A program made the position numbers and the translations under genes. Of a DNA stretch of 45,345 bases, positions 868 to 44,488 are shown piece after piece. Origin of the DNA: a virus; the IMG/VR virus record IMGVR_UViG_3300009506_000060, positions 1-45,345 of that record; one strand, given 5' to 3'. A model generated the notes under the pieces. The model ran no database searches. It was given only the letters and a program-made list of their open reading frames with translations, and had not been told where the DNA came from. Every line of letters starts with the position of its first letter. Within the stretch, counting starts at the first letter, position 1.

Positions 868-2412
868 CTACTCCTTTCCAAATGGTTTTGGTACGGTCCG
901 CTGCACCCGAAAGGCTCCGGCGAACCAGTCTACCATTAAGTGTCGGTTCCGATCCAGGAACCAGACGATGTTATTGTCGATAATAAAAGTCTCACACCAA
1001 TCGTCCTCCGCTCTCACCCCCCTTCCCGTTGCTTGGATTAGTTGTTGCATAGTAATATACGCTGTGTAGTCTCCATCCCGCTTAGACCGCGCCTTGATTA
1101 TTCCCCCACGAGTGTCTGGGTAGGGTAGCTTGCCGATGATCTGCCACCTGCACTCGTCGTAGGGGAAGTCCCATCCCGTGGCCATGGACGGGGAAACCAG
1201 GATGGCCGGAGGGTCCATCCGCTTGAAAGACCCTACCACCTGGACCGTATTGGTACTGTCGTGGGTGACCATGTGGGTTGCATATTTGCTCTGCTCCAGC
1301 ACCATGTCCCGGCGCTCGTAGCTCACGGTATGGATGATACCCTTGGTATCCTCCCGATCCCGTATAATCTGGTCTATCTTGGTTATCCATTGGCGGTATT
1401 CCATCGGTCCCATGCGGTAATTCATCCGTACCGTGGGTATGTGAATAAGGGGGCGATTGGCCAGGGGGAAGGAGTGGGGAAACTCCACCACCTCCAGTAG
1501 TGCCCGGTCCACCCCCAACAGGTCCGCCGTCTTGGGCACGCAGGTTGCGGAGGTTAGTACCACGTGGGGCACACCCAGGAACAGGATGTCCTCGGAGAAC
1601 GGGGCACCCCAGATGGGGGTGAGGGTCACATTGGTCCCATCGTCCTCCCACACCCAGTTGGAGTCCAGACGCGTGGCCAGCCGGGTCAACTTCTCCACCA
1701 GGCGCTTGAGGATAACGAATAGCTTTTCCTTGCGGGCGAACTTGGCCGCGTCCCGGTCCATGATGGCCTCCTCCAGCCGGTCCTCGGCCCACAACCTCCA
1801 GCCTATGGGGTCGTTGGGCAAGTCCTGTAGGGCGAGCACTTTGGCCTCCACTCTGGACTTACGGCTGAATTGTACCGCGAGGTGATCGATAAGGTGGTCC
1901 GGGGCCGCATGGGCCTCGTCCAGTACCATCAGGTCAAATTGTCCCAGCCCCGTGGAGTATTCGTTCTGTGCCATCCAATAGGCGTAGTTGGTAACCACAA
2001 CCTTGGCGCTATTGGCCCGGCGCAGAGCATCGTAGTATGGGCATCCCCCACCCTCCATCATGTCGCACTTTACCCCGAACAAGCACAGGCCCTCATCACA
2101 GTTACGGGACGTGTGCATGCGGCAGGTGTAGTTGCCCCGGCCCCGGATGTCTGCAAACCCATCCATGTTCCCAAAGTCCTTGAGTAATTGCTCCTGCAGG
2201 CCCTTGGTGGATGTGAGTATGACAGTACGACCAGGAATGATCTTGCCCGCAGTCATGTAGGTCAGGGACTTGCCGAACCCCGTAGGGCAGATGGCCATCA
2301 GATATCGCTTTGATGACGCTGCCATAAGGGTACAGGCTTCGTCTTGGTTCTCTCTCCATTCGGTGTACTTATCGGGAAGCCCGAATGCAACGGGCGGTGG
2401 CAATGTGGGCAT
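868..2412 (-). CDS. DinG/XPD-like superfamily 2 helicase with Fe-S-type cysteines
   Basis: This is a 514-aa ATP-dependent DNA helicase of the DinG/XPD/Rad3 type. The conserved N-terminal lead (LPDKYTEWRENQ) precedes Walker A (CPTGFGKS, about residues 42-49) and the DEAH box (VLDEAHA, about 163-169). Five cysteines lie between them (about 97, 105, 110, 116 and 124), placed where the XPD/DinG 4Fe-4S cluster domain sits. A motif VI-like QATGRGVRAEDDW is near the C-terminus. The chosen ATG at 2412 has a GGAGG site 10 nt upstream. The longer frame begins with a TTG at 2505 and crosses a small gene in another frame. It is the probable replicative or recombination helicase, in an operon with the SSB-like and nuclease genes. 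Confidence 0.85.
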   Translation of the reverse strand: MPTLPPPVAFGLPDKYTEWRENQDEACTLMAASSKRYLMAICPTGFGKSLTYMTAGKIIPGRTVILTSTKGLQEQLLKDFGNMDGFADIRGRGNYTCRMHTSRNCDEGLCLFGVKCDMMEGGGCPYYDALRRANSAKVVVTNYAYWMAQNEYSTGLGQFDLMVLDEAHAAPDHLIDHLAVQFSRKSRVEAKVLALQDLPNDPIGWRLWAEDRLEEAIMDRDAAKFARKEKLFVILKRLVEKLTRLATRLDSNWVWEDDGTNVTLTPIWGAPFSEDILFLGVPHVVLTSATCVPKTADLLGVDRALLEVVEFPHSFPLANRPLIHIPTVRMNYRMGPMEYRQWITKIDQIIRDREDTKGIIHTVSYERRDMVLEQSKYATHMVTHDSTNTVQVVGSFKRMDPPAILVSPSMATGWDFPYDECRWQIIGKLPYPDTRGGIIKARSKRDGDYTAYITMQQLIQATGRGVRAEDDWCETFIIDNNIVWFLDRNRHLMVDWFAGAFRVQRTVPKPFGKE

Positions 2413-2516: not shown

Positions 2517-3030
2517 CCATCTCCCCCAGCTTGGCACTGTACGATCCCTTGAGGAACTCGCCGTACTTGGCCTGTATCTCTCGCTGGTACTTATTGCGCC
2601 AGAACCCGTCCGGCATCTGCTTTATGTGGTTTGTCATCAGTAGTATCAACCGGGTTGCCTCGCTCCGGTCCCCCCTCTCCACATGGCACTTTATCCGCTC
2701 GTCCAGTTTGGAGAATATCCGGCTGAAATCGTCGTTAAACTCCTCGTCCCGCAGTATGTCCACCATGGAGTTGACCTGGCCCAGCATGGGCAAGTCTCCC
2801 ATCTCCCCAAGCCACTGCATGTGCCGGTGCAGGGCGTGGCGTAGCAGGTCCCCCCTCGTCCTGTAGGGATACTGTTTGCTCTGGATCGTCTGTTCCACCA
2901 ACCTCGCCATCATGGGGGTACAGCGGAACCATTGTCGTGTGGTGTGGCCCTTTGCATCCGATGCGGGTACCCGGAATTCACTTGGGTCCGGCATCTCCTC
3001 TGCCTTTCCTCTTACCAGCCTTAGGGACAT
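2506..3030 (-). CDS. Ribbon-helix-helix-like protein
   Basis: The product is 174 aa. The start at 3030 follows GAGAGGAAG, and a longer frame to 3081 lacks a good site. A segment near residues 30-70 reads as one beta strand (RQWFRCTP) followed by two helices with the pattern YRTRGDLLRHALHRHMQWL. That is the usual look of a ribbon-helix-helix DNA-binding domain. The remaining helical part (LDERIKCHVERGDRSEATRL) is unassigned. It overlaps the HTH gene upstream by 53 bases and the small CxxC gene downstream. It may be a regulator or DNA-binding accessory factor. The fold call is by eye. Confidence 0.6.
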   Translation of the reverse strand: MSLRLVRGKAEEMPDPSEFRVPASDAKGHTTRQWFRCTPMMARLVEQTIQSKQYPYRTRGDLLRHALHRHMQWLGEMGDLPMLGQVNSMVDILRDEEFNDDFSRIFSKLDERIKCHVERGDRSEATRLILLMTNHIKQMPDGFWRNKYQREIQAKYGEFLKGSYSAKLGEMDDD

Positions 3031-3253
3031 TGTACTTCCTCTCTCGTAGTAGTTTTTCCATTTCATCCAGCGACAGGCCAAACTCGTCCGCTAGTGCCCT
3101 AAGGCACGGTACCGATGGATTACATTTGTGGGCAAACACCTTGCTTATGTGGCTTATGGAGTATCCGGTCCGCGTGGCAATGCGGCGGATGTGTAGGTTC
3201 CCCAGGGTCAGGCGGGGCACCTCCTCCTTGTCGGTTATCTGCAAGACGAGCAT
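2978..3253 (-). CDS. Xre-family helix-turn-helix regulator
   Basis: The product is a 91-aa protein with one HTH domain. Residues about 24-62 (IRRIATRTGYSISHISKVFA followed by NPSVPCLRALADEFGLSLDEM) match the five-helix Xre/Cro pattern, and the C-terminus is basic. The ATG at 3253 has a GGGAGGAATT site that matches the leader of the divergent gene at 3533 (GGAGGAATTATGCT). It heads the leftward replication operon and faces the PurZ operon across 279 bp, so it is the obvious candidate to control one or both promoters there. The 19-bp direct repeats at 3426 and 3492 are candidate sites for it. Confidence 0.85.
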   Translation of the reverse strand: MLVLQITDKEEVPRLTLGNLHIRRIATRTGYSISHISKVFAHKCNPSVPCLRALADEFGLSLDEMEKLLRERKYNVPKAGKRKGRGDAGPK

Positions 3254-3425: not shown

Positions 3426-3444
3426 TGATGGATCCGGGGACGGA
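3426..3444 (+). repeat. 19-bp direct repeat, copy 1 (possible operator)
   Basis: TGATGGATCCGGGGACGGA is exactly repeated at 3492-3510. The flanks are also similar (GCGCAC...AGG just upstream of each). It lies downstream of the rightward promoter, where a bound repressor could block elongation or shape the leader RNA. The 66-bp spacing is a multiple of three and the frame is open, so a coding explanation is not fully excluded. Confidence 0.75.
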
Positions 3445-3491: not shown

Positions 3492-3510
3492 TGATGGATC
3501 CGGGGACGGA
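3492..3510 (+). repeat. 19-bp direct repeat, copy 2 (possible operator)
   Basis: This is identical to 3426-3444 and ends 22 bases before the start codon at 3533. Each copy contains a GGATCC palindrome. Confidence 0.75.
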
Positions 3511-3532: not shown

Positions 3533-3871
3533 ATGCTTAGATGGGAGGACATAGAGCATCTATCGGACCAGGCCAAGCTGTACGAGATCGAGCTAGAGCT
3601 GGATCGCGAGGCCCCGTGGGAGCAAGGGCCATATCGGTCGGAAAGGTACAGACTCAACCGCTGGCGCAAGAGGATAATCCGCCGCATGCAGGGGAGAGAT
3701 CCCGGATCCTCCGTGCGGCATAGGTCTAAGCCAGGGGGAGGTATGCGGCGGGACGAATACGACGACTATTTGGTAAAGAAAAGTGCACTGCTGATGCTGG
3801 AGGAGTTGGATCGGGACGAGTGTCCCGACCCCGAATGGCATTGGCGAAACTACAACGGAATGAGGAGGTAA
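3533..3871 (+). CDS. Hypothetical protein, first gene of the PurZ operon
   Basis: The product is 112 aa and of unknown function. The ATG at 3533 follows AGGAGGAATT. The open frame extends upstream to 3341, but that part is low-complexity and lies in the promoter leader. The protein is highly charged and probably helical, with an acidic N-terminal part (DQAKLYEIELELDREAPW) and basic middle (RLNRWRKRIIRRM). It ends 4 bases before PurZ, so the two are co-transcribed. No domain is recognised. Confidence 0.7.
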   Translation: MLRWEDIEHLSDQAKLYEIELELDREAPWEQGPYRSERYRLNRWRKRIIRRMQGRDPGSSVRHRSKPGGGMRRDEYDDYLVKKSALLMLEELDRDECPDPEWHWRNYNGMRR

Positions 3872-3875
3872 ATCT

Positions 3876-4970
3876 ATGCAACGAGGAAAGTTCAATATCA
3901 TCATCGGCGCGCAGGCAGGATCGGAGGCCAAGGGTAAATTTAGCGCCTTCCTGTGCAGCCAGAGTCCACCGGATGCGCTGGTAATGGCGTCCAGCCCCAA
4001 TGCGGGGCACACGGCGTACTTACCCAACGGAGAAAAGAGGGTGTCATACCACCTGCCCATTGGAGCTGTGGCATGCAATGCCCCGATCTACCTGGGACCA
4101 GCCAGCCTAATCAACCCCAAAACCTTCGCCCAGGAGATAGTGGACCTGGGCATAGACCCAAGGCGTATCCACATCGATCCCAGGGCATCCATTATCACGG
4201 AGGGGTACATATGGTGCGAAGCCTCTGGCGGCCTTAGTGACATCGGGTCCACCCTGCAGGGCGTGGGGGAGACTCGGTGCCGCAAAATGAGGAGGGAGGT
4301 GGGACATCCACTGGTTATAGACTGTATAGAGCCTTTCCTGGCGGACGTGGGGAACGTGACGGTACAGCCTACATCCTTTGAGATCAACTCCCTGATGGAC
4401 GAGGGTGCCACGGTACTGTGCGAGATGACGCAGGGATTCGACCTGGACCTGGAGCACGGCATCGACCCGCGCTACTGCACGAGTAAAATGATCAACCCCG
4501 CAATGGCTATGGCTGAGGCCGGTGTCTCCCCCAAACGGGTTGGCACCGTGTACGGTGTGCTCCGGCCTTATCCCATACGGGTTAACAATCGGACCGGTAC
4601 CAGTGGGCCATACGGCCACAGCGCCGAACTGAGATGGAGGGAAGTGGCAGAGAGATGTGGGCACCCCAATCCGGACGAGTTGATGGAGATAACCACCACA
4701 ACCAAATTACCTCGCCGGGTGTTTGAGTTCTGCCATCACCGCTTATCCCACTTCATACAGGTGTGTCAGCCGGACGTGCTATGCCTACAGTTCGCCAACT
4801 ACATCGACTGGGATGTGTACGGGGTGGAGTCCATGTCCGGCCTTACCCCCCGTGTGGTGGACTGGATCCACCGGCTGGTCCATAGGTACAACGTCCCGGT
4901 AAAATACGTGGGGACGGGTCCGGAGTACGACGCAATGGTGATGCATCCGGGGGGAGGTGACCTATGGTAA
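3876..4970 (+). CDS. purZ: PurZ, 2-aminodeoxyadenylosuccinate synthetase (PurA family)
   Basis: This 364-aa PurA-superfamily enzyme is shorter than cellular adenylosuccinate synthetases (about 430 aa). The P-loop reads GAQAGSEAKGK (residues 11-21). Cellular PurA has G-D-E-G-K-G here, and its catalytic Asp is replaced by Ser16. That change is the published hallmark of phage PurZ, which joins dGMP to aspartate on the way to 2-aminoadenine (Z) deoxynucleotide. The NAGHT motif (42-46) is kept. Later segments such as GVGETRCRKMRREVGH and EMTQGFDLD fit the family. It overlaps the MazZ-like gene by 7 bases, placing two steps of Z synthesis in one operon. Host enzymes (PurB and kinases) would finish dZTP. 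The family call is very secure. The PurZ call rests on the Ser and the context. Confidence 0.92.
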   Translation: MQRGKFNIIIGAQAGSEAKGKFSAFLCSQSPPDALVMASSPNAGHTAYLPNGEKRVSYHLPIGAVACNAPIYLGPASLINPKTFAQEIVDLGIDPRRIHIDPRASIITEGYIWCEASGGLSDIGSTLQGVGETRCRKMRREVGHPLVIDCIEPFLADVGNVTVQPTSFEINSLMDEGATVLCEMTQGFDLDLEHGIDPRYCTSKMINPAMAMAEAGVSPKRVGTVYGVLRPYPIRVNNRTGTSGPYGHSAELRWREVAERCGHPNPDELMEITTTTKLPRRVFEFCHHRLSHFIQVCQPDVLCLQFANYIDWDVYGVESMSGLTPRVVDWIHRLVHRYNVPVKYVGTGPEYDAMVMHPGGGDLW

Positions 4971-5377
4971 AGGGGGATGTGTTTGACCTGCTCGGGTCGG
5001 ACGAACCAGAGTTTGCATTTGACCTTATACCCCCACGTGCCTTGGCCCAGGTGGCACATGTGATGTGGAAGGGTAAAGGGCATAAGTACCACTGGAGTGA
5101 GAGGTCCATCCAGGAGCACATCGGTAGGGCCATAGGGCATCTGACTGCGCACTTGGCCGGTCGCCGGGAGGAAAATCACCTGGCCAATGCGGCCTGCCGT
5201 GTGCTGTTTGCACTGGATTTGCTGTCCTCCCCTGCCCCATCCGATAGGGAGGAGGCTGACTATCTGACCTATGTGGAAATGGGGCACACGGACCCATGTG
5301 CGGAGAAAATGGCCAAAGGGGGAGGATGTTCGTGCGGTGTGGGACGTGCTCTGTACGACCCGTGCCCGTCCCCGTGA
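4964..5377 (+). CDS. mazZ: MazZ-like dATP/dGTP diphosphohydrolase
   Basis: The product is 137 aa. Residues about 17-88 carry the pattern of the phage dATP/dGTP diphosphohydrolase N-terminal family. That pattern is FDLIPPRALAQVAHV, then GKGHKY, then a helix with HIGRAIGHLTAHLAG, then EENHLANAACRVLFALDLL. In Z-genome phages MazZ hydrolyses (d)GTP to (d)GMP and so supplies the PurZ substrate. The overlap with PurZ by 7 bases strongly supports that role. The last 30 residues carry four cysteines (CAEKMAKGGGCSCG...C), an unusual tail that might bind metal. The helical domain has fewer acidic residues than typical MazG motifs, so activity is inferred. Confidence 0.78.
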   Translation: MVKGDVFDLLGSDEPEFAFDLIPPRALAQVAHVMWKGKGHKYHWSERSIQEHIGRAIGHLTAHLAGRREENHLANAACRVLFALDLLSSPAPSDREEADYLTYVEMGHTDPCAEKMAKGGGCSCGVGRALYDPCPSP

Positions 5378-5427: not shown

Positions 5428-5460
5428 CGGGGGGCCTCCCGTGCCCCCCGTTTTCCTCGT
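5428..5460 (+). terminator. Rho-independent terminator of the PurZ operon
   Basis: CGGGGGG (5428-5434) pairs with CCCCCCG (5444-5450) around a 9-nt loop, followed by TTTTCCTCGTTT. It lies 50 bases after the MazZ stop and before the end of the convergent leftward operon at 5491, so it ends rightward transcription. Confidence 0.75.
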
Positions 5461-8643: not shown

Positions 8644-8654
8644 TGGTCCACCTC

Positions 8655-8849
8655 CTATTCGTTGAGTGTGTATCCTCTGCCAGTGTACCATCCGATGATG
8701 TCGTCGATCTCCTCCATACAATCGGACGCGTTCTCCATTCCGGAGGAGAACATCTGCAATACGTCGCGGATTTCATTCTCCATACCTAGCCAGTCGATCT
8801 TAGTGGGGGTATTGCCCCTCGATGTTTCCCTCACTTCCTCGCTTATCAT
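8655..8849 (-). CDS. Hypothetical small acidic protein
   Basis: The product is 64 aa. The ATG at 8849 follows GGGGAGGACAAGACC. A longer frame to 8903 is GC-rich junk without a site. The protein is acidic and helical (MENEIRDVLQMFSSGMENA). No domain is recognised. Confidence 0.65.
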   Translation of the reverse strand: MISEEVRETSRGNTPTKIDWLGMENEIRDVLQMFSSGMENASDCMEEIDDIIGWYTGRGYTLNE

Positions 8850-8884
8850 TGGTCTTGTCCTCCCCGCGCGTGCGCGAAGTAAAA

Positions 8885-8913
8885 AGGAAAGGGCAGGGGG
8901 CATCGCTGCCCCC
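8885..8913 (-). terminator. Possible leftward terminator or attenuator
   Basis: Reading leftward, GGGGGCA (8913-8907) pairs with TGCCCCC (8902-8896) around a 4-nt loop. A pyrimidine-rich stretch with TTTTT at 8885-8881 follows. It lies just after the stop at 8926. The U-run is about 10 bases from the stem, so termination may be partial. Confidence 0.45.
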
Positions 8914-8925
8914 GTCCCCTCGGCA

Positions 8926-9213
8926 TCACCCCCCCAGCTTGGCGGTCAGGTCTTGCCAACTCATCCCGTCCATGATTCCTGCGACTTCATCCTCAAAGCC
9001 CATCTCGGCCAGAATCTGCAGGGCCGAACGTGCCTGGTCCAGAAGGACACCGACTCTGAGTTGATCCACCGAGGTGGCATCGAATGACAGGCTCGCTTCA
9101 ACCCACTCTGCCGGGTTGTTTGGGGGGGGCTCCCCTTCCTCGAACAGACGTCTGTTCTCGCGCACCATGGCGTCGAACTGCCTCTCGGTCATCGTGATTG
9201 TGAAGTGCTTCAC
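8926..9213 (-). CDS. Hypothetical protein
   Basis: The product is 95 aa. A GTG start at 9213 follows GGAGGTGAACGAGC. The N-terminus looks like beta-helix-helix (MKHFTITMTERQFDAMVREN), loosely like small DNA-binding proteins. The rest is acidic and helical. No function is recognised. Confidence 0.65.
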   Translation of the reverse strand: MKHFTITMTERQFDAMVRENRRLFEEGEPPPNNPAEWVEASLSFDATSVDQLRVGVLLDQARSALQILAEMGFEDEVAGIMDGMSWQDLTAKLGG

Positions 9214-9244
9214 GCTCGTTCACCTCCTCTCTGGGCTGGTTGCC

Positions 9245-9300
9245 CCTGTCCTGCCCTCCCACATGGGAAGGGCACGACAGGAGGCCGGGGCTGCCCCCGG
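9245..9300 (-). other. Two stacked hairpins in mRNA leader
   Basis: CCTGTC-TGCCCT-CCC (9245-9260) pairs imperfectly with the arm ending at 9281 (AGGGCA, GACAGG). Next to it CCGGGG (9285-9290) pairs with the complementary run ending at 9300. Both lie between the genes ending at 9320 and starting at 9213. No U-run follows. Confidence 0.5.
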
Positions 9301-9319
9301 CTCCTGATGCCCGATCCGA

Positions 9320-9628
9320 TCAGACCAGCTTGTCCAGTTCGGCCATGGCCTTGTCCAGCGCCTTGATCAGGCTCGCGCTGCCTTCGATGTCCTTGGCGAT
9401 CCGTGCGGCCTTGGCGATGGCCTTTCCGGTCCACGCCTTCCGATCCTCCGCCAGCTTGGCGTTGACCTCGGTCTTGCGTGTGGCTGCCCTGGCTTCGCCG
9501 TCCAGCACCCTCAAGCAGTTGATGCAGGTGATGGCTTCCTTTTCCCCTGTGATCTTCGTCTTTTTCCCACCGATTTTGGCTCCGCACAAAGCGGTTCCTT
9601 CGTCCGTCAGTCCGTGTGTTGGTCTCAT
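9320..9628 (-). CDS. Small zinc-ribbon protein, first gene of the leftward block
   Basis: The product is 102 aa. The ATG at 9628 follows AGGAGGCAAGACC. N-terminal residues RPTHGLTDEGTALCG then TCINCLRVL give the H...C...CxxC layout of small phage zinc-binding proteins. The C-terminal 60 residues are charged and helical (coiled-coil-like, ending KALDKAMAELDKLV). It is the first gene left of the large palindrome-rich region. Its promoter must lie in that region but was not identified. Confidence 0.65.
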   Translation of the reverse strand: MRPTHGLTDEGTALCGAKIGGKKTKITGEKEAITCINCLRVLDGEARAATRKTEVNAKLAEDRKAWTGKAIAKAARIAKDIEGSASLIKALDKAMAELDKLV

Positions 9629-9688
9629 GGTCTTGCCTCCTGTGTGGCCGGTCCGCCCGGCCTTGCGTGGGAGCGGGATGCCCCCACC

Positions 9689-10094
9689 CTTGGAATTGCA
9701 AGCCCCATGCCACACCGAACGCCCCCCGAACCCCAACGGGTTGTGTACCACAGTGTGGACACCACAACCGGTTGTGTATCACCCCGTGGCACCGGAACTC
9801 GGAGTTCTGCCCACCGGAACTCCCAGTTCCGATACCACAGCGTGGCATCTCCCCGCAAGCCCGCGTCCGTCGCGGCCTCGCGAGCACCCCCGGCCCGATC
9901 CCACAGCGTGGCACTCCGGACCGGAACTCCCAGTTCCGATGCTACCCCGTGGCATGCGGCCCGGCCCGGACACCCACGGCGTGGTAGCTCGCCGCCTGGC
10001 ACGCCCCTTGCTATTGCAAATCCCATGCCATAGGCGTCCACCGGGAGGAAACGCAACTGGCACATCTCTTGCAAATTGCAAGGCCCGTGCCACA
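9689..10094. repeat. Second repeat family: CTTGnnATTGCAAG followed by CCCATGCCACA
   Basis: Three copies lie at 9689-9714, 10007-10032 and 10068-10094. Each has a palindromic half (perfect in the third, CTTGCAAATTGCAAG) followed by a CCC(A/G)TGCCA(C/T)A box in the same orientation. They are interleaved with the TACCAC array. Confidence 0.75.
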
Positions 10095-10335
10095 TTTGGC
10101 CCCCGGCCCGCGTCCGTCCCGATCCCACGACGTGGCGTGCTACTGAGTGGTGTTACCACAGCGTGGCCCTGCTACCGCGTGGGATGCATGGGAGGACGGA
10201 GGGGAAAACCACGTCGTGGTACCCTAGCCCGATCCCCAACCCACCCCCGGAGTGGTATACCCACAGGGTAGCAGTCCTACACCGTAGTATACCACTGGGT
10301 GGATACCACAGGGTGGGTCCCACTGGGTGGTAGGG
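9745..10335. repeat. Array of about 15 palindromes, TACCAC-nnn-GTGGTA type
   Basis: Clear copies centre at 9748-9758 (CCACAGTGTGG), 9831-9849 (GATACCACAGCGTGGCATC), 9897-9913, 9941-9955, 9973-9988, 10121-10135, 10152-10168, 10171-10187, 10209-10219 (CCACGTCGTGG), 10258-10270 (TACCCACAGGGTA), 10277-10287, 10288-10306, 10302-10320 and 10318-10335. Weaker copies are near 9777 and 10245. Arms are conserved and the three central bases vary, as expected for a dimeric protein's binding site. Spacing is irregular on the left, and the last four copies are nearly end to end. Confidence 0.85.
9795..9937. repeat. Third repeat family: GGAACTnnnAGTTCC
   Basis: Three palindromes are seen: GAACTCGGAGTTC (9795-9807) and two identical copies of GGAACTCCCAGTTCC (9816-9830, 9923-9937). 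The latter two are each next to a TACCAC-type palindrome. CACAACCGGTTGTG (9763-9776) is a further perfect palindrome nearby. Confidence 0.75.
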
Positions 10336-10437
10336 AAGGGATTGTGGCGCGTCTGGGTCCCATACCATAGTACTAGTATATGTGATTCTTGCGTCAGGGG
10401 ACCCACATAGGGTTATGCCTTCTCGGCGCGGGAGGAA

Positions 10438-10465
10438 CCCCCCTCCCCCCACACCCCCCACCCCC
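10438..10465 (-). other. G-quadruplex motif (minus strand)
   Basis: The plus strand reads C6-T-C6-ACA-C6-A-C5, so the minus strand has four runs of five or six G separated by one to three bases. This is a very strong quadruplex-forming pattern. It abuts the AT-rich tract to its right. Confidence 0.75.
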
Positions 10466-10547
10466 TTTTAACATATATCATGTACCTTTTACTTTTTACT
10501 TTTTAAAATGTACAATGTACTATGTAGGGGGACGAGCGGGAGGGGTC

Positions 10548-10577
10548 TTGACACGCCGCTATGGCCGGGTGTATACT
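10548..10577 (+). promoter_or_regulatory. Strong sigma70-type promoter of the late operon
   Basis: A consensus TTGACA (10548-10553) and TATACT (10572-10577) are separated by 18 bases, with a TG-type extension just before the -10 (GTGTATACT). The start would be near 10584, about 100 bases before the first late gene at 10687. Confidence 0.8.
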
Positions 10578-10686
10578 GTCGCAAAAGGGGGAGATAGGGG
10601 GAACCTCCACTCTTACGGGTATCCGGCCCGGTCCGGCCAAATTACCCTCTCCCCCTAATTTTAACCAAGCATAGGAGATAGAAACC

Positions 10687-10851
10687 ATGAAGTACTTTTT
10701 ACGAGCATTACAGATAATGGGTACGGTAAGTGAGTGGTCCGTACAGGCCCTTGAGGACCGCAAAGTTACATTGGCCGAGGCTGTCGATCTGGCCCAGAGG
10801 ATCTGCAAAATCCTTGGGGTAGAGGCAGAATTAGACGTACCGATGGAGTAG
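10687..10851 (+). CDS. Small conserved-type protein, first late gene
   Basis: The product is 54 aa. The ATG follows AGGAGATAGAAACC. It reads MKYFLRALQIMGTVSEW, then a helical part with TLAEAVDLAQRICKILGVEA, and is acidic at the end. It looks like a short two-helix protein. The function is unknown. It lies 4 bases before the next gene and opens the late operon. Confidence 0.7.
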   Translation: MKYFLRALQIMGTVSEWSVQALEDRKVTLAEAVDLAQRICKILGVEAELDVPME

Positions 10852-15423: not shown

Positions 15424-15813
15424 ATGCGCCGTCTATTACTTGTTATTCTTACTTTATTGGCGATGGTGTCTGTGGTATCTGCGGCTAATACCGTTGTTTA
15501 CTCGGCTGGTACATACACCGTTACCATATCCGCTATAGACTCTGACTGGGCCTGGACGGATCTATTCCCTACCCATCAGAGTGGTATAAAGATATGGTCC
15601 ATACGGTTTAATCCTGGTGCGGCCAATGACCGTTGTGTAATAAATGCAGGCGGTGCGTCCGGTGGAGATCTGTTTGACTCTTCCGTGGCCACTGGTACTG
15701 GGGATGGGGTTATAGAGTACTATCCTCCCAATTTGCGTCTAAAACCCTACCTGGATTTTACCGATGGGACGTACAATGCGGCTGCCAAGGTAACCATCAT
15801 AATACTGGAGTAA
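15424..15813 (+). CDS. Small exported beta protein (signal peptide)
   Basis: The product is 129 aa. A textbook signal peptide (MRRLLLVILTLLAMVSVVSA, cleavage after VSA) is followed by about 109 residues of mostly beta structure (TVVYSAGTYTVTISAIDSDW, IKIWSIRFNPGAANDRCVI). The domain layout recalls small phage surface or decoration proteins, but the export signal is unusual for a virion protein. It is the first gene after TerL. Confidence 0.7.
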   Translation: MRRLLLVILTLLAMVSVVSAANTVVYSAGTYTVTISAIDSDWAWTDLFPTHQSGIKIWSIRFNPGAANDRCVINAGGASGGDLFDSSVATGTGDGVIEYYPPNLRLKPYLDFTDGTYNAAAKVTIIILE

Positions 15814-15817
15814 TAAC

Positions 15818-15994
15818 GTGCGAATACTACTACTACTGATCGCTATTGCGTGTTTGGCTTTTACGTATAGCGGTCATACAACCAAAATGACAATGGATAT
15901 GGGATCTAAGTCTTCCACGTCTGTACCCAATGGGGCTGTTACGTTCGGTACGACCTATGTTGTGTTTGGTACGACCTACGTTACGTTTCAATAG
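15818..15994 (+). CDS. Very small exported or lipoprotein-like peptide
   Basis: The product is 58 aa. A GTG start at 15818 lies 4 bases after the preceding stop, with GGAG just upstream. The N-terminus RILLLLIAIACLAF is a signal or membrane segment, and AIAC could act as a weak lipobox. The C-terminus repeats FGTTYV(V/T)F twice. The start codon is inferred from context. Function is unknown. Confidence 0.5.
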   Translation: MRILLLLIAIACLAFTYSGHTTKMTMDMGSKSSTSVPNGAVTFGTTYVVFGTTYVTFQ

Positions 15995-16006
15995 AGGGAG
16001 TTATCT

Positions 16007-17284
16007 ATGAAAAGGTTACTATTAATACTAATACTACTGCTAGCGATTGGCGCCAATACTGCGTATTCCGTCGATACTATTAATTGTGATGATGATTCCA
16101 ATAGTATAATGGATGTTGATTGTGGGGGTACCAATGTGGCCACCTCTACTGCCAACACTGTTTTTGCTGGTCCCGCGTCTGGTGCGGCAGCGGCTCCAGC
16201 CTTTAGAGCCCTAGTTGACGACGACATACCGAATGATATAACTATTACCGAGGCCGATATGGTGGTGAAGAATCTATACGATGCCTACACCATACTTGCG
16301 GCTACGGCGGACAATACCCCAGCGGCTTTAACCGTAACCGAGCAAACCGTTGTCGGAAGGGCTACGGGTGGGGCAATAGCGGCCCTTGCCATAGATTCTG
16401 ACCTGTCGGCTGTCTCTGCCAATGACGATACGGTACCGAGCGCAAAAGCCACAAAAGCGTATGCTGAGACAAGGATGGCAGCCACAAGTGCGGCAGTTGT
16501 AGCCACATTTGCCAGTGGTTCGTGCTCTGGATACCTGAAATCCGACGGCGGTTGCGACACACCAGCCGGTGGCGCGACAATCAGTGAAGGCAACTCATCG
16601 GTAGATGTCGATGATGGTGCCGGAGGGGCCGGGTCGGTCGATGTGACAGTAGATGGATCTGTAGTTACAGCTACGACAGCAAGCGGTGTTGCCGTTACGG
16701 GAGGATTGAGCGTAACAGGTGCGATAACCCAAGATCCTTCCTCAGATCCAATTGACCAGGGTAATGATTCTGATGCCGATGCGACAGGCACTTTCAAGAT
16801 ATATGCTAATGCTCTAACTGCCGGGCAGGATTCGCAAGTCATTGTTCAGGTTGACGATTCGGCGGGTGAACAGCAGACGCAAGCGGTGTTTGATGGTTTG
16901 AAAGAAACTTCAACATTTCACAGGGTACTTGCCAATATTCCGCAAGCAAAAACTTATGACGATAATGATGACGATGATGAAACGGTAGGTGTGGATTTAC
17001 TTAGTTCAATAATTTTTATTACCGGTGATAATGATTCTGACAATGACTCCATCGATTTACAAGATGGTACAGTTGACGGACAGATGATAACTTTTATCGC
17101 GGCAGCGAACGTAGATGCAGATGACACCTTTACAATAGATGCCGAAACGGATTCGACCTGTACCGGTTGTCCTAATAGCGGGATATTAGTTCTTGATACT
17201 GTTGGTGATTCAGTTAGTATTGTGTGGTCTGGGTCAAAAACAACTACACCTGCCTGGTTTTACTTGGGAGCCTATGCACAATGA
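16007..17284 (+). CDS. Tail-fibre-like protein with signal peptide, mosaic composition
   Basis: The product is 425 aa. It has a signal peptide (MKRLLLILILLLAIGANTAYS, cleavage near AYS/V) and an N-terminal fibre segment of a kind common in phage tail fibres (FAGPASGAAAAPAFRALVDD, about residues 53-72). After this come Asp/Ala/Thr-rich repeats and an AT-richer C-terminal half (about 235-425) with a beta-rich, Asp-rich domain (YDDNDDDDETVGVDL). The six mature cysteines fit an oxidising compartment. Base composition shifts within the gene, from the phage average to AT-rich, so the 3' half was probably acquired by recombination. Its stop overlaps the next start (ATGA). Confidence 0.7.
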   Translation: MKRLLLILILLLAIGANTAYSVDTINCDDDSNSIMDVDCGGTNVATSTANTVFAGPASGAAAAPAFRALVDDDIPNDITITEADMVVKNLYDAYTILAATADNTPAALTVTEQTVVGRATGGAIAALAIDSDLSAVSANDDTVPSAKATKAYAETRMAATSAAVVATFASGSCSGYLKSDGGCDTPAGGATISEGNSSVDVDDGAGGAGSVDVTVDGSVVTATTASGVAVTGGLSVTGAITQDPSSDPIDQGNDSDADATGTFKIYANALTAGQDSQVIVQVDDSAGEQQTQAVFDGLKETSTFHRVLANIPQAKTYDDNDDDDETVGVDLLSSIIFITGDNDSDNDSIDLQDGTVDGQMITFIAAANVDADDTFTIDAETDSTCTGCPNSGILVLDTVGDSVSIVWSGSKTTTPAWFYLGAYAQ

Positions 17285-18105
17285 TAAAAAGATTTTCCAT
17301 AGCTTTAATTTTTATACTATTATTAGTAAGTTATTCTTATGCTTTTCTTCCACTCATTACATCAAGAGCTAATTATCGTCCACCTTGGTACGCTGACTCA
17401 AATGTTGTTTTTTCATGGGATGCGCGTTCCGGGTCAACTGCTTACAACAGTTCAGGAACGGCACTAACAGGGACCTTAACCAACGGTGACATAGTAACAT
17501 ATCAGGGATCGCTGGCCCTTCGGATCAATGCCGCAGATGAATATATAGCTTTTGCCCAGACTGGCAACCAATACGCTGACGGAACAGCGGCACAAACTAT
17601 ATGTGTCAGCGCCTATATTACTGCCGATCCCGATTTTAATGTAGGTTTATGGTCAGCTTCGGCAGCAGCCAACAATGAAGTTATGACCATTCAATGGCAA
17701 TCCAACGCGCAGGGAGTTTTTGGATACTGGGACACTCTTTCCGATACTGCAACTAACAACTATGATACCTGCACCGGATCGAACTGCACCGGAGCCTGGC
17801 ATACGGTAGGATACAGCCATGATACCCCTGCAGAAACTCCAAGCGGACAAACTGTTAATCCTGATAGTGACGCCACATGGACAGATGGATGGGATACTGA
17901 GGATGCTTCAGAAGTTGGAGATATGACAAACCCTTTGACTCAAATTTGGATAGGTAATAATTCTACAGGCACAAATATTTCAGCGGACGGAACCCCAGGC
18001 GCGACAGCGATTGTCTATGTCAGGGCAGTTGCATTGATTAATGGTTATACCACTGTGGGTTCACCAATTAACTGTGAAGCTTTAACCGGATGGCCTGTAC
18101 CATGA
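17281..18105 (+). CDS. Exported lectin-like (LamG/ConA-type) protein
   Basis: The product is 274 aa. The ATG overlaps the preceding stop. The signal peptide runs MIKRFSIALIFILLLVSYSYA (cleavage SYA/F). The mature protein resembles a concanavalin A/LamG jelly-roll domain (VVFSWDARSGSTAYNSSG near the start, then ALRINAADEYIAFA). Such folds bind glycans. Four mature cysteines are present. The gene is AT-rich, unlike the late genes to its right. The fold is judged by eye. Confidence 0.6.
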   Translation: MIKRFSIALIFILLLVSYSYAFLPLITSRANYRPPWYADSNVVFSWDARSGSTAYNSSGTALTGTLTNGDIVTYQGSLALRINAADEYIAFAQTGNQYADGTAAQTICVSAYITADPDFNVGLWSASAAANNEVMTIQWQSNAQGVFGYWDTLSDTATNNYDTCTGSNCTGAWHTVGYSHDTPAETPSGQTVNPDSDATWTDGWDTEDASEVGDMTNPLTQIWIGNNSTGTNISADGTPGATAIVYVRAVALINGYTTVGSPINCEALTGWPVP

Positions 18106-36988: not shown

Positions 36989-38346
36989 TACGCAAGTTTA
37001 CACTAATAGCACTACTCATATTATTGGCGGGAATTGCCTGTGCCCTCACCACCCCATCTTACAATCCCATGTTTACTGCCTTCGACTCCAACGGGGATCC
37101 CCTGGCCGGGGGTAAGCTGTATACATACTATGCGGGAACAACTACGGCCAAGACCACGTGGACGGATTATACTAAGGCTACCCCAAACTCTAACCCGGTG
37201 GTATTAGACTCTGCGGGTCGGGCATCCGTATGGATCGACACTACCGATGGTGCATACAAATTCGTACTAAAGGACAGCGATGGAGTGTCCCTGTGGACCA
37301 TGGATAACATAACCAACTTCCAGGCCACGTCCATCTCCCTCAAATCTTCCGGGTACACCGCTACCCCATCGGATGACATCATCCTGGTGGACACCGGGGT
37401 AACGGACATCACCATCCAGATTGAAGACGTAAATACCTTCGTAAACCCTCTTACCATCATAAACATAGGATCCAATAGCGTAATAATTGACCCCTACTCA
37501 ACCCAGACCGTTAATGGGAGCACCACAGAGGAAGTGGGGGTGCAATACCGGGCTGCCATCCTCCATCCCGATACTGCGAACAATGCGTGGGTGGATACGG
37601 AGCAGTACTCCCGCGAGTATCTAGCCTATCACAACGTGGTAATGACGGGATACCTGGGTAGGTCCAATTTTACCTACAAGGATGCGGATGAGATATACAT
37701 CGGGGCCGGGGCATACGAGGTAAGCGGGGTGATGGCGTACTGGGCGTCCACCCTGACTTCCCCCGCCACCGGGGCCGGGGTTGGGGTTACGGACTGGTAT
37801 TACCTATACATCGATTACTCCGCCATCCCCGCCAGCGGACTAATAGACAACGGGGACATCTACTGGAGTACCGGGGAGCCGTCTTATAGCAATTCCAAGA
37901 GGGCATGGTATCATCAGACCAACACGGACGACCGATGTGTGTTTGCTGTATACATCGTAACTGGTAACATCTACGAGTTCTTCCATACCGGGGATCGCCG
38001 GGTGCTGTACGCAAACGGGTCCTACGACATATCGGTACAGGACTTGGGTGGGGATTGGACCGACGCGGAAGCCGCACTACTTATGCCATCATTCGCAACT
38101 GCAGCCCAGGTGGCATTCCTTCTTGCTTACGTGGACACGGGCACTACGTTTTACTGGAGGACCAATGGGCAGACCGGATCCGATGGACATGTAATCGGAG
38201 TGGAGTTGGCCGATGTTACCCCGGTATACGTTACCCTAGACGTAATAACTGATACTGCCCATCTATTGGAGCTGTATGACGGTGGGTCGGGTACTGATAC
38301 TATCAGCGCCTTTACGGAGGGATTTTTCCTACCCAATGGGTTTTAA
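36985..38346 (+). CDS. Tail fibre/spike with signal peptide
   Basis: The product is 453 aa. The ATG follows AAAGGAGGTAATAAA and overlaps the preceding stop. The signal-like N-terminus is MIRKFTLIALLILLAGIACA. It precedes the classical phage fibre domain YNPMFTAFDSNGDPLAGGKL...YYAGTTTAKTTWTDY...NPVVLDSAGRASVWI, here placed at residues 26-105. The rest is a beta-rich fibre (ADEIYIGAGAYEVSGVMAYW). The last 18 bases overlap the convergent DNA polymerase gene, leaving no room for a terminator. A receptor-binding role is likely. The export signal is unexpected. Confidence 0.8.
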   Translation: MIRKFTLIALLILLAGIACALTTPSYNPMFTAFDSNGDPLAGGKLYTYYAGTTTAKTTWTDYTKATPNSNPVVLDSAGRASVWIDTTDGAYKFVLKDSDGVSLWTMDNITNFQATSISLKSSGYTATPSDDIILVDTGVTDITIQIEDVNTFVNPLTIINIGSNSVIIDPYSTQTVNGSTTEEVGVQYRAAILHPDTANNAWVDTEQYSREYLAYHNVVMTGYLGRSNFTYKDADEIYIGAGAYEVSGVMAYWASTLTSPATGAGVGVTDWYYLYIDYSAIPASGLIDNGDIYWSTGEPSYSNSKRAWYHQTNTDDRCVFAVYIVTGNIYEFFHTGDRRVLYANGSYDISVQDLGGDWTDAEAALLMPSFATAAQVAFLLAYVDTGTTFYWRTNGQTGSDGHVIGVELADVTPVYVTLDVITDTAHLLELYDGGSGTDTISAFTEGFFLPNGF

Positions 38347-40980
38347 CTTCTCCATCGACCCCCAGCGCTTTCCGTGTTTGAAGTCTACCTCCAGGGGGAT
38401 GATGAAGTCGGGAGGGGATACAGTAGTCATGATGCGTCCAATCTGAGGAGCGACCACAGGCACCATCCCCTCCCGCACCTCCCACACCAAGTCGTCATGG
38501 ATCTGGATTAGCGTCTTTACACTACCCTTAATCTCACCCGTGCGATACCAAGGTACCAATCGGCCCATAGCCTCCTTGATTATCCCCTGCGCTCCCATCT
38601 GGATCGGCGCATTGCCCGCCTGGCGTTCGGCCTCCAACCTGGCCCAGCGATTGACGCTGCGGATGCCAGGGATGTACCGTATGCGGCCCCACATGTCCCG
38701 CACATACCCGTTGCGCTTGGCCTGTTCCCCGTTGGCCTTCATGTAAGCCGCCACCCCGGAGTAGATATTAAACCAGGACTTGATCATCTCCTCACAGTCG
38801 GACTCGCTTATGCCCCGCGCTCCTCCGACCTGCAACTCCCGGTGCAATCCCTGTGCGGTGATCAGGTTCAGTATGCCGAATCCCACGCGCTTGGCCGGGT
38901 ATCGATGCTTCATTTCGTCCAGTTGCTCCAGAGGCACCCCGAACATCCAACTTGCCGTCTGGGAGTGGATGTCCTCCCTCGACCAGAAGATAGACATCAT
39001 CCGCTCATCCTTGCTACCGTTGGCCGCGACCCGCATCTCCACCTGGCTATAGTCCCCGCTGAGAAACTCCCATTCGTCCCCGGCCACGTAGCAGTCCCGC
39101 ACCTTGCGCCCCTCGTCGGACCGTACCGGTTGGGCCATCAGGTTCGGGCTGGAGGACGACAGACGCCCGGTGGTGGTCCGCGTCATCCGGATGGTACTCC
39201 GCACCCTCCCATCTGGGCTTACCAGCTTGGGCACCGCGTCGGCAAATTTGGTTTTTAGGCTCTGGTACTCTCTCCAGTCGATTATCTCCTGCACTACTGG
39301 GTGCAGACCAATATACCGTTTGAGGATATCGTCAGCCGTGCTGCGCGTCTTCGCCCCCTTTTTGCTCTTGTACTTCCCCCCTCGGTCCTGTAGTCGCAGA
39401 TGATCGTAGATGACCTCTGCCATCTGGACTGCTGATCCTGGATTAGCAGCCTTTCCTGCCAGGTACCGTCCCACCATTCCCTGTATTGTAGACTGGATTG
39501 CATCCTTCCTCTCCTCAAAGTACTGACTAAGTTGCTCGAAGGCCCGGACGTCCACGGGCATCCCATTTCCCATCATATCCACCACCATGGGCATGGCCCT
39601 CATGTCTCTCCAGAAGGTATCATCCAACCCAAGCCCACGGATCCTCTCCCAGAGGACAGGGTATACCCGTATAGTAGCATCCGCGTCTCTTGCGGAGTAC
39701 CGCACTGCGTCCTCCACCGGTATGTCAGCAAGGGTAGCCTCTCGCAGGGGACCGAACGCGGCAGTAACTTCGTCTGTTCCGTCCATTTTGGTCCATCGAG
39801 AGTAAGGATCAACGTCCCCTCCGCTGTTGACTTCATCCAGCACTCGCTTGACTTTTCGCAGTATGTTAACTGGTTGCCGCACATAAGGTTCTCCTTTCTT
39901 CCATTCCAGCACCGGTGCGGGGTCGGGCCACTCCCGTTCCATCACCCTATGCAGATAGGCCACAGCCCGCTCCCGCGTCGCCCCGGCCACCATCTCCTCA
40001 TACGCTGACATGACCATACCACAGTGGCGGAAGGCCAGGGGTTTGAGGCCCTGGGGTTCGGACTGCAGCAGGTAGGCCATCACCATGGTGTCTGCAAACT
40101 TGGCCGGACGCACTCCCATGGAGGCCAGCACGGGGAGGTCGTACGCCGCGTTGTGGATGATGGTCGTAGTGTCGGGGGAGCGTACGGACCTACGGACCAC
40201 GGCGAGGGCATGCTCGTTGTCCGCCATGACGACCCAAGACCGTCCCGGAGCTACGGAGAGGCTAAGGCACCACGCCTTCGGGCCGTCCGATTCGGTGTCG
40301 ATGGCGATCTCATGCGCCCCGGTCAGGTCCAGGGCCAATCCGGACAGATCTTCCCCCACCAGGGTGTACGTCTCGCGGCCCTCCCATTCGTCCCTGACCG
40401 GATGGGATTTGACTTCCCCCCGCACTATGGCCCCAGCCGCTGCCATGTCCGCGTGGAATAGGATCATGGTTTCGGGGGAATGTAGGCCCGCTGCGGGGTG
40501 GTAGGTGGGGATGACGATACACTCGTGGCCCAGGATGGACACGGGGTGTGGGATGCCATGGACCATCTCCAGGCTGACGTCGCCCAGCACGTGCCGGGTA
40601 GAGTACGCACCCATGGTGATGATCCAGCGGGGTTGCTGCTCAAGGATCTGGGTTATAAGCCAGGCCTCGCTGCAATTGGCCAGCTCGGAGGCTGTGGGGT
40701 TGCGATCCCCGACCGGGTGGCACTTGATCACGTTGTCCAGCCAGATCCCATACCGGGCGATCCCGTTGATGGTGAGGTGGTGTCGTGCCTCCTGCCCACT
40801 GACGCCGATTAGGGGGCGACCGGTACGGTCCTCCTCATGGCCGGGGGATTCGGCAAGGCACAGCACTTGGGGATTGTCCGCGTAGGCTAGTTCTGTGGTG
40901 TAGCACTCCCCCCAGCAGATGCGCTGGCGTGAGGCAACCAGGTCCGGACACAGGCTACATTGGGTTCCAACCTTCGCCAT
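38329..40980 (-). CDS. dpoZ: Family A DNA polymerase with N-terminal UDG-like domain (DpoZ candidate)
   Basis: The product is about 883 aa. Residues 1-190 match a family-4-type uracil-DNA glycosylase: Cys8/Cys11 (CSLC) and Cys87/Cys103 for Fe-S, AESPGHEED (43-51), GRPLIG, and TYHPA (159-163). A 3'-5' exonuclease follows (Asp228/Glu230 in AIDTES, HNAAYD 276-281, YSARDAD near 427). The polymerase has motif A GDYSQVEMR (641-649), motif B RYPAKRVGFG (692-701) and motif C IHDD (826-829). In the O-helix the residue matching E. coli Tyr766 is Asn704 and the usual YG is NL. Motif C is HDD rather than HDE. With PurZ and MazZ nearby it is a candidate Z-preferring polymerase. It is the last gene of the leftward operon. 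Confidence 0.88.
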   Translation of the reverse strand: MAKVGTQCSLCPDLVASRQRICWGECYTTELAYADNPQVLCLAESPGHEEDRTGRPLIGVSGQEARHHLTINGIARYGIWLDNVIKCHPVGDRNPTASELANCSEAWLITQILEQQPRWIITMGAYSTRHVLGDVSLEMVHGIPHPVSILGHECIVIPTYHPAAGLHSPETMILFHADMAAAGAIVRGEVKSHPVRDEWEGRETYTLVGEDLSGLALDLTGAHEIAIDTESDGPKAWCLSLSVAPGRSWVVMADNEHALAVVRRSVRSPDTTTIIHNAAYDLPVLASMGVRPAKFADTMVMAYLLQSEPQGLKPLAFRHCGMVMSAYEEMVAGATRERAVAYLHRVMEREWPDPAPVLEWKKGEPYVRQPVNILRKVKRVLDEVNSGGDVDPYSRWTKMDGTDEVTAAFGPLREATLADIPVEDAVRYSARDADATIRVYPVLWERIRGLGLDDTFWRDMRAMPMVVDMMGNGMPVDVRAFEQLSQYFEERKDAIQSTIQGMVGRYLAGKAANPGSAVQMAEVIYDHLRLQDRGGKYKSKKGAKTRSTADDILKRYIGLHPVVQEIIDWREYQSLKTKFADAVPKLVSPDGRVRSTIRMTRTTTGRLSSSSPNLMAQPVRSDEGRKVRDCYVAGDEWEFLSGDYSQVEMRVAANGSKDERMMSIFWSREDIHSQTASWMFGVPLEQLDEMKHRYPAKRVGFGILNLITAQGLHRELQVGGARGISESDCEEMIKSWFNIYSGVAAYMKANGEQAKRNGYVRDMWGRIRYIPGIRSVNRWARLEAERQAGNAPIQMGAQGIIKEAMGRLVPWYRTGEIKGSVKTLIQIHDDLVWEVREGMVPVVAPQIGRIMTTVSPPDFIIPLEVDFKHGKRWGSMEKLKPIG

Positions 40981-41308: not shown

Positions 41309-41316
41309 TGTCCCTC

Positions 41317-43032: not shown

Positions 43033-43607
43033 CGGTCTACTCCCTCCCATTCGGTTTGGTCCCATACTATTTCCGTCCCCCAACAGTCCCACCCACTTAC
43101 CAGATCCCTGGAGAATAACTCTATCCGGGGTACATCACCAAACAACTCAACTATTCGGTCTCTGGTCTCGGGAGGTTTTCTCCCCATCTCTCTTACCCTC
43201 CCATCCAATACGCTACGTACTGCGGCAGATTTGCGCACCATTTTCCCCCTAATACCCAAAAGACACACCTCTGGGTTGGCCCTTGTATAATTCCCCGTCC
43301 CCATGAACCACGTATCCTGCACTTTGTTCCTTTTTACCCATGTGAATGCCATGGTAGCATATCTAAATCCCCACGAGTCCATAACGTCCGGGAATAGACG
43401 CAGGTGGGGGAATGTAATCCACAGGAATAGAGCGCAATTCGGATAGCATATATCCCCCACGGGGAGGTCTATTATATCCTGGTTACTCATTAGATCGAAG
43501 TTTTTGCCTATTCCCCTCCCCCCTGTGGGCTTCGCCTCATATCCTAGCCCACTCCAGGGGGGATCAGCATATATTATATTATACTTCCGGTCTGGAAATG
43601 GTATCAT
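43020..43607 (-). CDS. MT-A70 family adenine methyltransferase
   Basis: The product is 195 aa. The ATG at 43607 overlaps the stop of the ATPase gene (TGATG). An alternative start at 43616 lies 1 base from AGGAG. YNIIYADPPWSGLGYE contains the DPPW catalytic motif (15-18). CALFLWITFPHL and FTWVKRNKVQD, and the late DCWGTEIVW, fit the SAM-binding MT-A70 fold. It would methylate N6 of a purine in DNA or RNA. In a Z-containing genome the natural substrate could be 2-aminoadenine. Confidence 0.86.
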   Translation of the reverse strand: MIPFPDRKYNIIYADPPWSGLGYEAKPTGGRGIGKNFDLMSNQDIIDLPVGDICYPNCALFLWITFPHLRLFPDVMDSWGFRYATMAFTWVKRNKVQDTWFMGTGNYTRANPEVCLLGIRGKMVRKSAAVRSVLDGRVREMGRKPPETRDRIVELFGDVPRIELFSRDLVSGWDCWGTEIVWDQTEWEGVDRWER

Positions 43608-44488
43608 CACTCCCATACTCCTGGATCGAACATGGGCAGGGCCATCTGGGCCATGATGGGGAACGTGCACATCTCCCCCTCAAGCTCCATCCCTGCTAAG
43701 TCCGGGTTTTGTCTGCAGTCCAGGATGGATAGGGCAAAGGCCCCACCATCTTCTGGCCGGTATCGGTACATCTGGGTGTTCACTTGCACCAGGAACCCCG
43801 TGTCCTTAAAACCGGCCCTCTCGTACTCCCCATTCCACTTGTCATTCACGTATTGTTGCTTCATTTTGTGGACGAGGATCAGATTCTTGTCGTAGTCGTA
43901 CGCCTTGCGGATCAGCGCCCGGTACTCCGCGTTGACTGGCCCATACATGTACGGCATGACCTGGGTCAGCTTGCCGAACCGGGCCAGACGCAACAGCTCC
44001 CACACTTCCGTGGCGGTATCAACCACCACCGTCCTTACCTCCTTGCTCCGGATCACGTAGTTGTACGCATCCTCGAACCGTTTGTACTCTGCCGGTGCCT
44101 GTCCGGATTGCGTTTCGTCCAATCGGGCCACGGGCATCGAGTGTATCTCTTTTCCAGTAAATTTGTCTATTACGCCCTCCGTGCCAAAGTCCAGGTTAAA
44201 GAAGGCTATAGGGTCCGGGGCGGTGAGGGCGAAATGTGTCTTCCCCTGCTTCTCCAGGGCGCTGACCGCCACGATCAGGCGTGGGATCATAACTGTGTCC
44301 CTCACCCCGGTGAACCCCAGCTTTTTCATCTGTGGGCTTAATGTCATACCTCTCTCCTCTCCACCGAGTTCGTTTATTATGCCACGGTCGTACGCCTCGG
44401 CATCTGCCATCTCCCCTCGGTGGTAATCGGTGATGGCATCCTCGTTATCCATTACCTCCCCAAGAGCGAAGTCTGCGAACTCACCCAT
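43607..44488 (-). CDS. Sak4-like RecA-fold ATPase, with fused N-terminal domain
   Basis: The product is 293 aa. The Walker A is SALEKQGKTH (76-85) and the Walker B VRTVVVDTATEVWELL (about 151-166). Length and layout fit phage Sak4 ATPases, which assist single-strand annealing with SSB. Residues 1-47 (FALGEVMDNEDAITDYHRGE then AYDRGIINELG) look like a stand-alone small phage protein fused in front. The ATG at 44488 has AGGAGGACC. A second in-frame ATG at 44347 has GGAGAGAGGT and would give the 246-aa ATPase alone. It overlaps the nuclease gene upstream. Confidence 0.82.
   Translation of the reverse strand: MGEFADFALGEVMDNEDAITDYHRGEMADAEAYDRGIINELGGEERGMTLSPQMKKLGFTGVRDTVMIPRLIVAVSALEKQGKTHFALTAPDPIAFFNLDFGTEGVIDKFTGKEIHSMPVARLDETQSGQAPAEYKRFEDAYNYVIRSKEVRTVVVDTATEVWELLRLARFGKLTQVMPYMYGPVNAEYRALIRKAYDYDKNLILVHKMKQQYVNDKWNGEYERAGFKDTGFLVQVNTQMYRYRPEDGGAFALSILDCRQNPDLAGMELEGEMCTFPIMAQMALPMFDPGVWE

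Follow-up and report, generated by a model that had tools for sequence, protein, structure and literature searches.

We analyzed 45,345 bp of viral DNA (one strand, 5' to 3'; IMG/VR virus record IMGVR_UViG_3300009506_000060, positions 1 to 45,345), referred to here as the window. An operon at 3533-5377 and its flanks contain the following features:

3533..3871, + strand: small basic helical protein encoded by the operon's first gene, which the core clade of relatives keeps immediately upstream of PurZ
3876..4970, + strand: PurZ, succino-2-amino-2'-deoxyadenylate synthetase, 364 aa, assigned from PF00709, PHROG 1211, residues and tree
4964..5377, + strand: DUF5664 / dGTP_diPhyd_N variant without the acidic motif, 137 aa, putative dNTP-pool enzyme (PF18909, 40 bits; cut-off 27)
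5428..5450, + strand: intrinsic terminator closing the operon, 8 G-C pairs followed by TTTTCCT
2978..3253, - strand: divergent gene with a possible regulatory role, HTH match below cut-off (PF13560, E 6.9e-5); place conserved in the core clade

The original prediction described PurZ in tandem with a second gene that overlaps it by 7 bases, and this arrangement is present (4964-4970), as is the strong terminator that it placed behind the operon. It also gave the operon its own promoter, but promoter-like sites are not clearly above chance (3 vs 1.3 ± 1.1 in shuffled sequences). The HTH neighbor stands in part: a divergent gene is there and is kept in the core clade, although its HTH match is weak. 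A perfect 19-base direct repeat, TGATGGATCCGGGGACGGA, lies just upstream of the operon at 3426-3444 and 3492-3510; it may represent an operator or the duplication of a start region. The first gene of the operon had been missed. Its family, collected with an iterated HMM, includes 22 ORFs from about 17 records, and it lies just upstream of PurZ wherever a locus reaches PurZ. The modeled structure of this protein consists entirely of helices (pLDDT 78.6).

Matches to the P22 portal (535 bits) and P22 coat (127 bits), together with matches to connector and scaffold families, agree with the earlier assignment of the window, DNA of an uncultured virus of bacteria, to a P22-like podovirus. The remaining genes and sites that bear on this study are as follows:

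868..2412, - strand: DinG/Rad3-like helicase of the divergent replication gene cluster (PHROG 2488, 264 bits)
38329..40980, - strand: UDG-exonuclease-PolA fusion DNA polymerase, 883 aa, proposed Z polymerase (UDG 70 bits, exonuclease 53 bits, DNA_pol_A 314 bits)
38866..38868, - strand: Asn705 codon (AAC), helix-O site equivalent to E. coli Tyr766 and phiVC8 DpoZ Phe459
39247..39249, - strand: Lys578 codon, listed second among the PurZ-tracking polymerase sites
40477..40884, - strand: family-4-like uracil-DNA glycosylase (UDG) domain at the polymerase N-terminus, residues 33-168 (PF03167, 70.4 bits; Arch_udg, 101 bits)
40955-41389, - strand: nucleoside-deoxyribosyltransferase-like small protein (CGSTRF ... 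GYIGESTRREIEYA), overlapping the polymerase start
41420-42136: ERCC4-type nuclease of the conserved replication cluster (synteny)
43020-43607, - strand: MT-A70 N6-adenine methyltransferase with a DPPW motif
43607..44488, - strand: Sak4-like ATPase of the conserved replication cluster (PHROG 124, E 1.9e-11; synteny)

In core members of the clade, the gene at 3533, PurZ and the pool gene, in this order, stand divergent from the HTH gene, gene 2506, the DinG helicase, gene 72, gene 44481, Sak4, the ERCC4 nuclease and the polymerase. Because the first and last genes of the window adjoin in relatives, the record appears to be a nearly complete genome in circularly permuted form. The 33 kb between PurZ and the polymerase is therefore not a real distance; it is caused by the cut point of the record, and the two genes lie about 7-9 kb apart in core relatives. 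The small gene at 40955-41389 was considered as DmtZ (NDT family) and rejected, with no match to a DmtZ HMM or to Pfam; among relatives it occurs in one PurZ-carrying record (L034/L036) and in L090, which lacks PurZ. Elsewhere in the window, the large genes between terminase and portal (15424-22653) encode products that start with signal-peptide-like hydrophobic stretches, which is unusual for a phage structural block. About 2.2 kb at 8650-10850 has a convincing gene on neither strand, and an Rfam search of the window gave zero matches, this interval included. A relative, L114 (JAUXIH010000023.1), is an 11-kb contig in a Dehalococcoidia MAG that carries the whole cassette at 60% identity. It hints at a Dehalococcoidia host for the clade, with the usual doubt that attaches to viral contigs in bins.

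The product of 3876-4970 belongs to the adenylosuccinate-synthetase family (PF00709, 102.6 bits; cut-off 27) and matches PHROG 1211, the PurZ family, with 175 bits. It aligns to S-2L PurZ (7odx) over residues 6-309 (phmmer E 1.6e-32) and shares 33% identity with a protein of Bacillus phage vB_BpsS-140 and 31% with S-2L PurZ. The NCBIfam PurZ model NF038379 scores 159.1 bits, under its cut-off of 300, and an archaeal PurA model scores 161 bits, likewise under its cut-off. Model scores alone fail to separate PurZ from PurA here; alignment with known proteins separates them. Since the NF038379 cut-off is a naming threshold and not a mechanistic one, we weighed the tree and the residues above it for this divergent clade.

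Three residues of S-2L PurZ (S23, T273 and Q308) are PurZ specific and contact the substrate (PMC8342488). We aligned the window protein with known PurZ, PurZ0, archaeal-type PurA and bacterial PurA. Ser16, equivalent to S-2L S23, occupies the position of the PurA Asp (GSEAKGK vs GDEGKGK) and is invariant in the window clade. The equivalents of T273 and Q308 are Thr (ITTTTK) and Asn (QFANY, as in phiVC8), where PurA has Gly and Asp, and the PurZ-type insert after RPYPIRV is present. In the tree, 18 rows of the window clade (100/100) group with PurZ from S-2L, phiVC8, SH-Ab and BpsS-140 (100/97), and bacterial PurA, archaeal PurA and PurZ0 all fall outside this branch. Phylogeny, the check proposed for the original PurZ identification, and the three PurZ-type residues thus confirm 3876-4970 as PurZ, with a predicted dSMP-forming activity. 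Ser16 had been called the mark of PurZ; the residue is there, but Ser alone is undiagnostic. PurA-like proteins encoded on Rhizobium and Methylobacterium plasmids show it too, combined with Gly and Asp at the positions of T273 and Q308, and we rejected the single-residue criterion as sufficient. Of these plasmids (L131-L133), L132 and L133 carry short PurA-like genes of this kind, and L131 has an archaeal-type PurA copy with Asp, located between folE and purB.

Relatives of the window PurZ are encoded by 17 viral contigs and the one Dehalococcoidia MAG contig, at 54-66% identity, which places the finding far beyond chance. One relative, on a 64-kb phage contig (L003:10001-11557), contains an in-frame, intein-like insert that separates GIDPRY from CTSK; the insert matches PF14890 with E 3.7e-5, below cut-off.

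The second gene of the tandem had been labeled a member of the MazZ family, an assignment that we rejected. HMMs for MazZ, MazZ-2, DatZ, DutZ and DmtZ detected nothing in the window, no ORF matched MazZ or MazZ-2 at E < 1, and there was no DUF550 match. The gene instead belongs to PF18909 (dGTP_diPhyd_N, equivalent to DUF5664). The D-x-E-x-G acidic segment is deleted in 13/13 DUF5664 proteins of the window type (that of the window and 12 from relatives, located beside PurZ) and is present in DUF5664 of Wayne-like, SH-Ab 15497 and PMBT28 phages. The fold model is poor (pLDDT 70, no PDB match below E 2). In sister phages L024, L025, L028, L030 and L031, an acid-bearing DUF5664 occupies the same slot, and in L052 (4122-4763) DUF5664 carries a C-terminal DUF7768 domain with a weak nucleoside deoxyribosyltransferase match. 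By eye, L002:3701-4471 resembles this DUF5664-DUF7768 protein, which recalls the DmtZ-DutZ fusion of phage Wayne. A role in pool control fits, because the slot persists even though different proteins fill it; for the window variant, this role is putative, and the motif loss makes catalysis uncertain.

The family A polymerase expected by the original prediction is encoded at 38329-40980 on the - strand; its fusion to a UDG domain and its non-Tyr helix-O residue, which tracks PurZ, had not been noticed. The exonuclease domain is of the 3'-5' type. NCBIfam DpoZ models score 83.1 bits (cut-off 500) and 59.2 bits (cut-off 350), and the helix-O residue is Asn705 and not Phe, which by sequence puts the polymerase outside both described DpoZ groups. 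Phe is found at this site in eight described Z phages and is the one mutation common to both DpoZ clades (PMC8599892). PurZ, DUF5664 and the UDG-Pol fusion are found together in independent contigs. In three relatives (L043:10396-10788, L048:1465-1778 and L049:10454-11363), inserts split the polymerase ORF within or just after the UDG part. The L043 insert encodes a protein with an HNH-like pattern, which suggests a homing element.

We fetched 80 UDG-Pol loci, many of them in fragmentary records, and searched the whole records for PurZ. A scan of 819 polymerase columns followed, with groups set by PurZ presence alone and with the PurZ-negative group made up of records of 20 kb or more. Residue 705 is non-Tyr in 17/17 PurZ-positive rows (N 13, T 3, F 1) and Tyr or Met in 26 of the 27 PurZ-negative records (Y 21, M 5, N 1). 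Sites 705 and 578 tie as the best discriminators of PurZ presence; at site 578, most PurZ carriers have Ser and most relatives that lack PurZ have Thr, and the window has Lys. PurZ is missing from seven Asn-type rows, all of them short fragments that belong to the same clade, and those examined stop before the expected PurZ position.

In a polymerase tree built without site 705, the Asn clade has 18 rows (100/98), and two Tyr-type sequences, L048 and L049, are nested in it on separate branches. Asn rows alone as a clade were rejected by the AU test (p = 4e-5) for a group that was chosen after the first tree had been seen. In L049, the flanking gene order is kept on both sides, and PurZ, DUF5664 and the gene corresponding to 3533 are missing. 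The helix-O codon is TAC in L049 vs AAC or AAT in relatives. L048 and L049 have reverted to Tyr, in L049 with PurZ lost from its conserved position; L048 is a fragment of 6.5 kb, too short to show whether PurZ is present.

The Thr-type polymerases (L092, L095 and L109) occur with a PurZ0-related PurZ (95/89) and with a DatZ-like HD gene after the polymerase, so PurZ and the loss of Tyr appear to have arisen separately there. This combination of a PurZ0-like enzyme with a DatZ-like gene defines a second group of UDG-Pol phages; the DatZ HMM that detected these three genes, and none in the window, was built from 5 DatZ proteins. The Phe-type L107 has a truncated PurZ at its contig end, and PurZ accompanies the Thr type and the Phe type on different branches. 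Exceptions to the pattern are L105 (Asn, with PurZ absent within 41 kb), Streptomyces phage Spocter (PurZ0 with Tyr, read by alignment) and L084, L089, L097, L101 and L103, which have Met at helix O and no PurZ in records of 41-59 kb. The Met types lie near the Thr-type clade and perhaps have another DNA modification or have lost PurZ. An independent-pairs test gave 3/3 in the expected direction (p 0.25) but is underpowered, with few independent events and most PurZ-positive rows in one clade. Collectively, these comparisons show that the helix-O residue covaries with PurZ, including a reversion that goes with PurZ loss.

We propose that the operon supplies the precursor of 2-aminoadenine (Z) and that Z replaces most or all A in the phage DNA, a reading that we consider probable. 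The window PurZ would join dGMP to aspartate to give dSMP, the chemistry known for the S-2L and phiVC8 enzymes, and host enzymes would then complete dZTP; both the dSMP route and its completion by the host were demonstrated for phiVC8 (PMC8342488). The DUF5664 variant may tune dGTP and dATP pools. As neither DatZ nor a known dATP-removing enzyme was detected in the window, the load of selectivity should fall on the polymerase. The choice of Z over A would be made mainly there, through loss of the bulky helix-O Tyr (replaced by Asn705) close to the nascent base pair, in an enzyme that keeps its exonuclease domain. Klenow mutants of Tyr766 have altered fidelity, which is compatible with this proposal. 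S-2L has a different arrangement, in which DatZ is paired with a PrimPol that takes A as well as Z (PMC8065100; PMC8342488). In the phiVC8 structure paper, no single element was found to determine the Z-over-A preference of DpoZ (PMC8599892). We regard as evenly balanced the proposition that UDG-exonuclease-PolA fusions are a third, separately evolved class of Z-selecting polymerases, with the Tyr766 equivalent as an evolutionary switch that moves from Tyr to Asn, Thr or Phe on gain of PurZ and back to Tyr on its loss.

We predict Z in virion DNA and consider it very likely. The original prediction of full replacement of adenine is supported as far as a Z genome is concerned; completeness is not supported, since DatZ was not found in the window and an adenine-methylase-like gene is present. 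An MT-A70 methylase would be odd and unexpected in an A-free genome. Together with the negative DatZ, DutZ and DmtZ searches of the window and the motif loss in DUF5664, its DPPW-bearing gene is consistent with dZTP being made but only partly incorporated, leaving a mixed A/Z genome with dATP not removed and adenine methylation kept. We think this unlikely: the methylase occurs in none of the PurZ-carrying relatives fetched, the tracking of PurZ by the polymerase implies selection for Z use, and phiVC8 DpoZ by itself prefers dZTP, at concentrations 1-2 orders lower (PMC8599892). More radically, the enzyme could be PurA-like and merely boost AMP or dAMP supply in a phage with ordinary A-DNA. 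Genes for auxiliary metabolism are common in phages, and the PurZ and archaeal PurA models score the protein equally. Its placement inside PurZ with all three PurZ residues, and the coupled polymerase change, with Tyr-type UDG-Pol relatives lacking PurZ, make this reading very improbable.

The covariation itself might reflect shared descent only, with the helix-O change hitch-hiking as a lineage marker that has no part in adaptation to Z. That 13/17 PurZ-positive rows are Asn type and nearly all from one clade is consistent with this, as are the PurZ-free L105 and Met types and the Tyr of Spocter alongside PurZ0. Descent alone fits poorly with Asn, Thr and Phe on different branches with different PurZ types, with Phe in both DpoZ groups, and with an Asn-to-Tyr reversion accompanying PurZ deletion at a syntenic site, and we give it only modest credence. 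As for the second gene, it could be a working dGTP/dATP diphosphohydrolase that does the job of MazZ in feeding dGMP to PurZ. It adjoins PurZ and is conserved with it, its slot is filled by acid-bearing DUF5664 in the five sister phages, and DUF5664 of phage Wayne hydrolyzes dATP and dGTP (PMC12884076). Against these points stand the deletion of the acidic motif in every window-type member and the poor fold model without a PDB match, so that we hold such an activity to be possible but slightly more doubtful than credible.

Close relatives with and without PurZ that share gene order and differ at few polymerase positions offer a natural experiment on the preference for Z over A. The tendency of a single helix-O residue to change with PurZ gain or loss points to how a polymerase may tell Z from A, and the residue can serve as a sequence mark for finding further Z phages. 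The window would also extend the Z-genome machinery to a UDG-fused polymerase and to a set of dNTP-pool genes without DatZ.

Like the PurZ-MazZ-DatZ cassettes of cyanophage S-2L, Vibrio phage phiVC8 and Acinetobacter phage SH-Ab 15497, the window has a PurZ from the larger clade that includes theirs, with a nucleotide-pool gene behind it. Unlike them, its PurZ forms a clade of its own (about 30% identity) and is partnered by a DUF5664 variant, neither DatZ nor MazZ was detected in the window, and the polymerase is neither DpoZ nor PrimPol. A stand-alone DUF5664 protein is shared with the PurZ0 phages of Actinobacteria (Wayne and Ghobes, with DUF5664-1, DutZ and DmtZ; PMC12884076). In contrast to those phages, the window has PurZ, no detected DutZ or DmtZ, and a polymerase far from DpoZ-1; a PurZ0-like enzyme is instead a feature of the Thr-type UDG-Pol phages. 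UDG-PolA fusions of similar domain order are found in Almagne, Lebethron and ctfzr933 (22-28% identity), with thymidylate synthase or dCMP deaminase genes among their neighbors, but these keep the helix-O Tyr, and the stretches fetched contain no PurZ. The polymerase resembles phiVC8-like and Wayne-like DpoZ in being of family A, in having an exonuclease domain and in the replacement of the helix-O Tyr, and differs from them in having Asn and not Phe, in the fused UDG domain and in scores far below both DpoZ model cut-offs. The system is thus a variant of known Z-DNA machinery, and what it adds is a testable single-site hypothesis for the selection of Z versus A.
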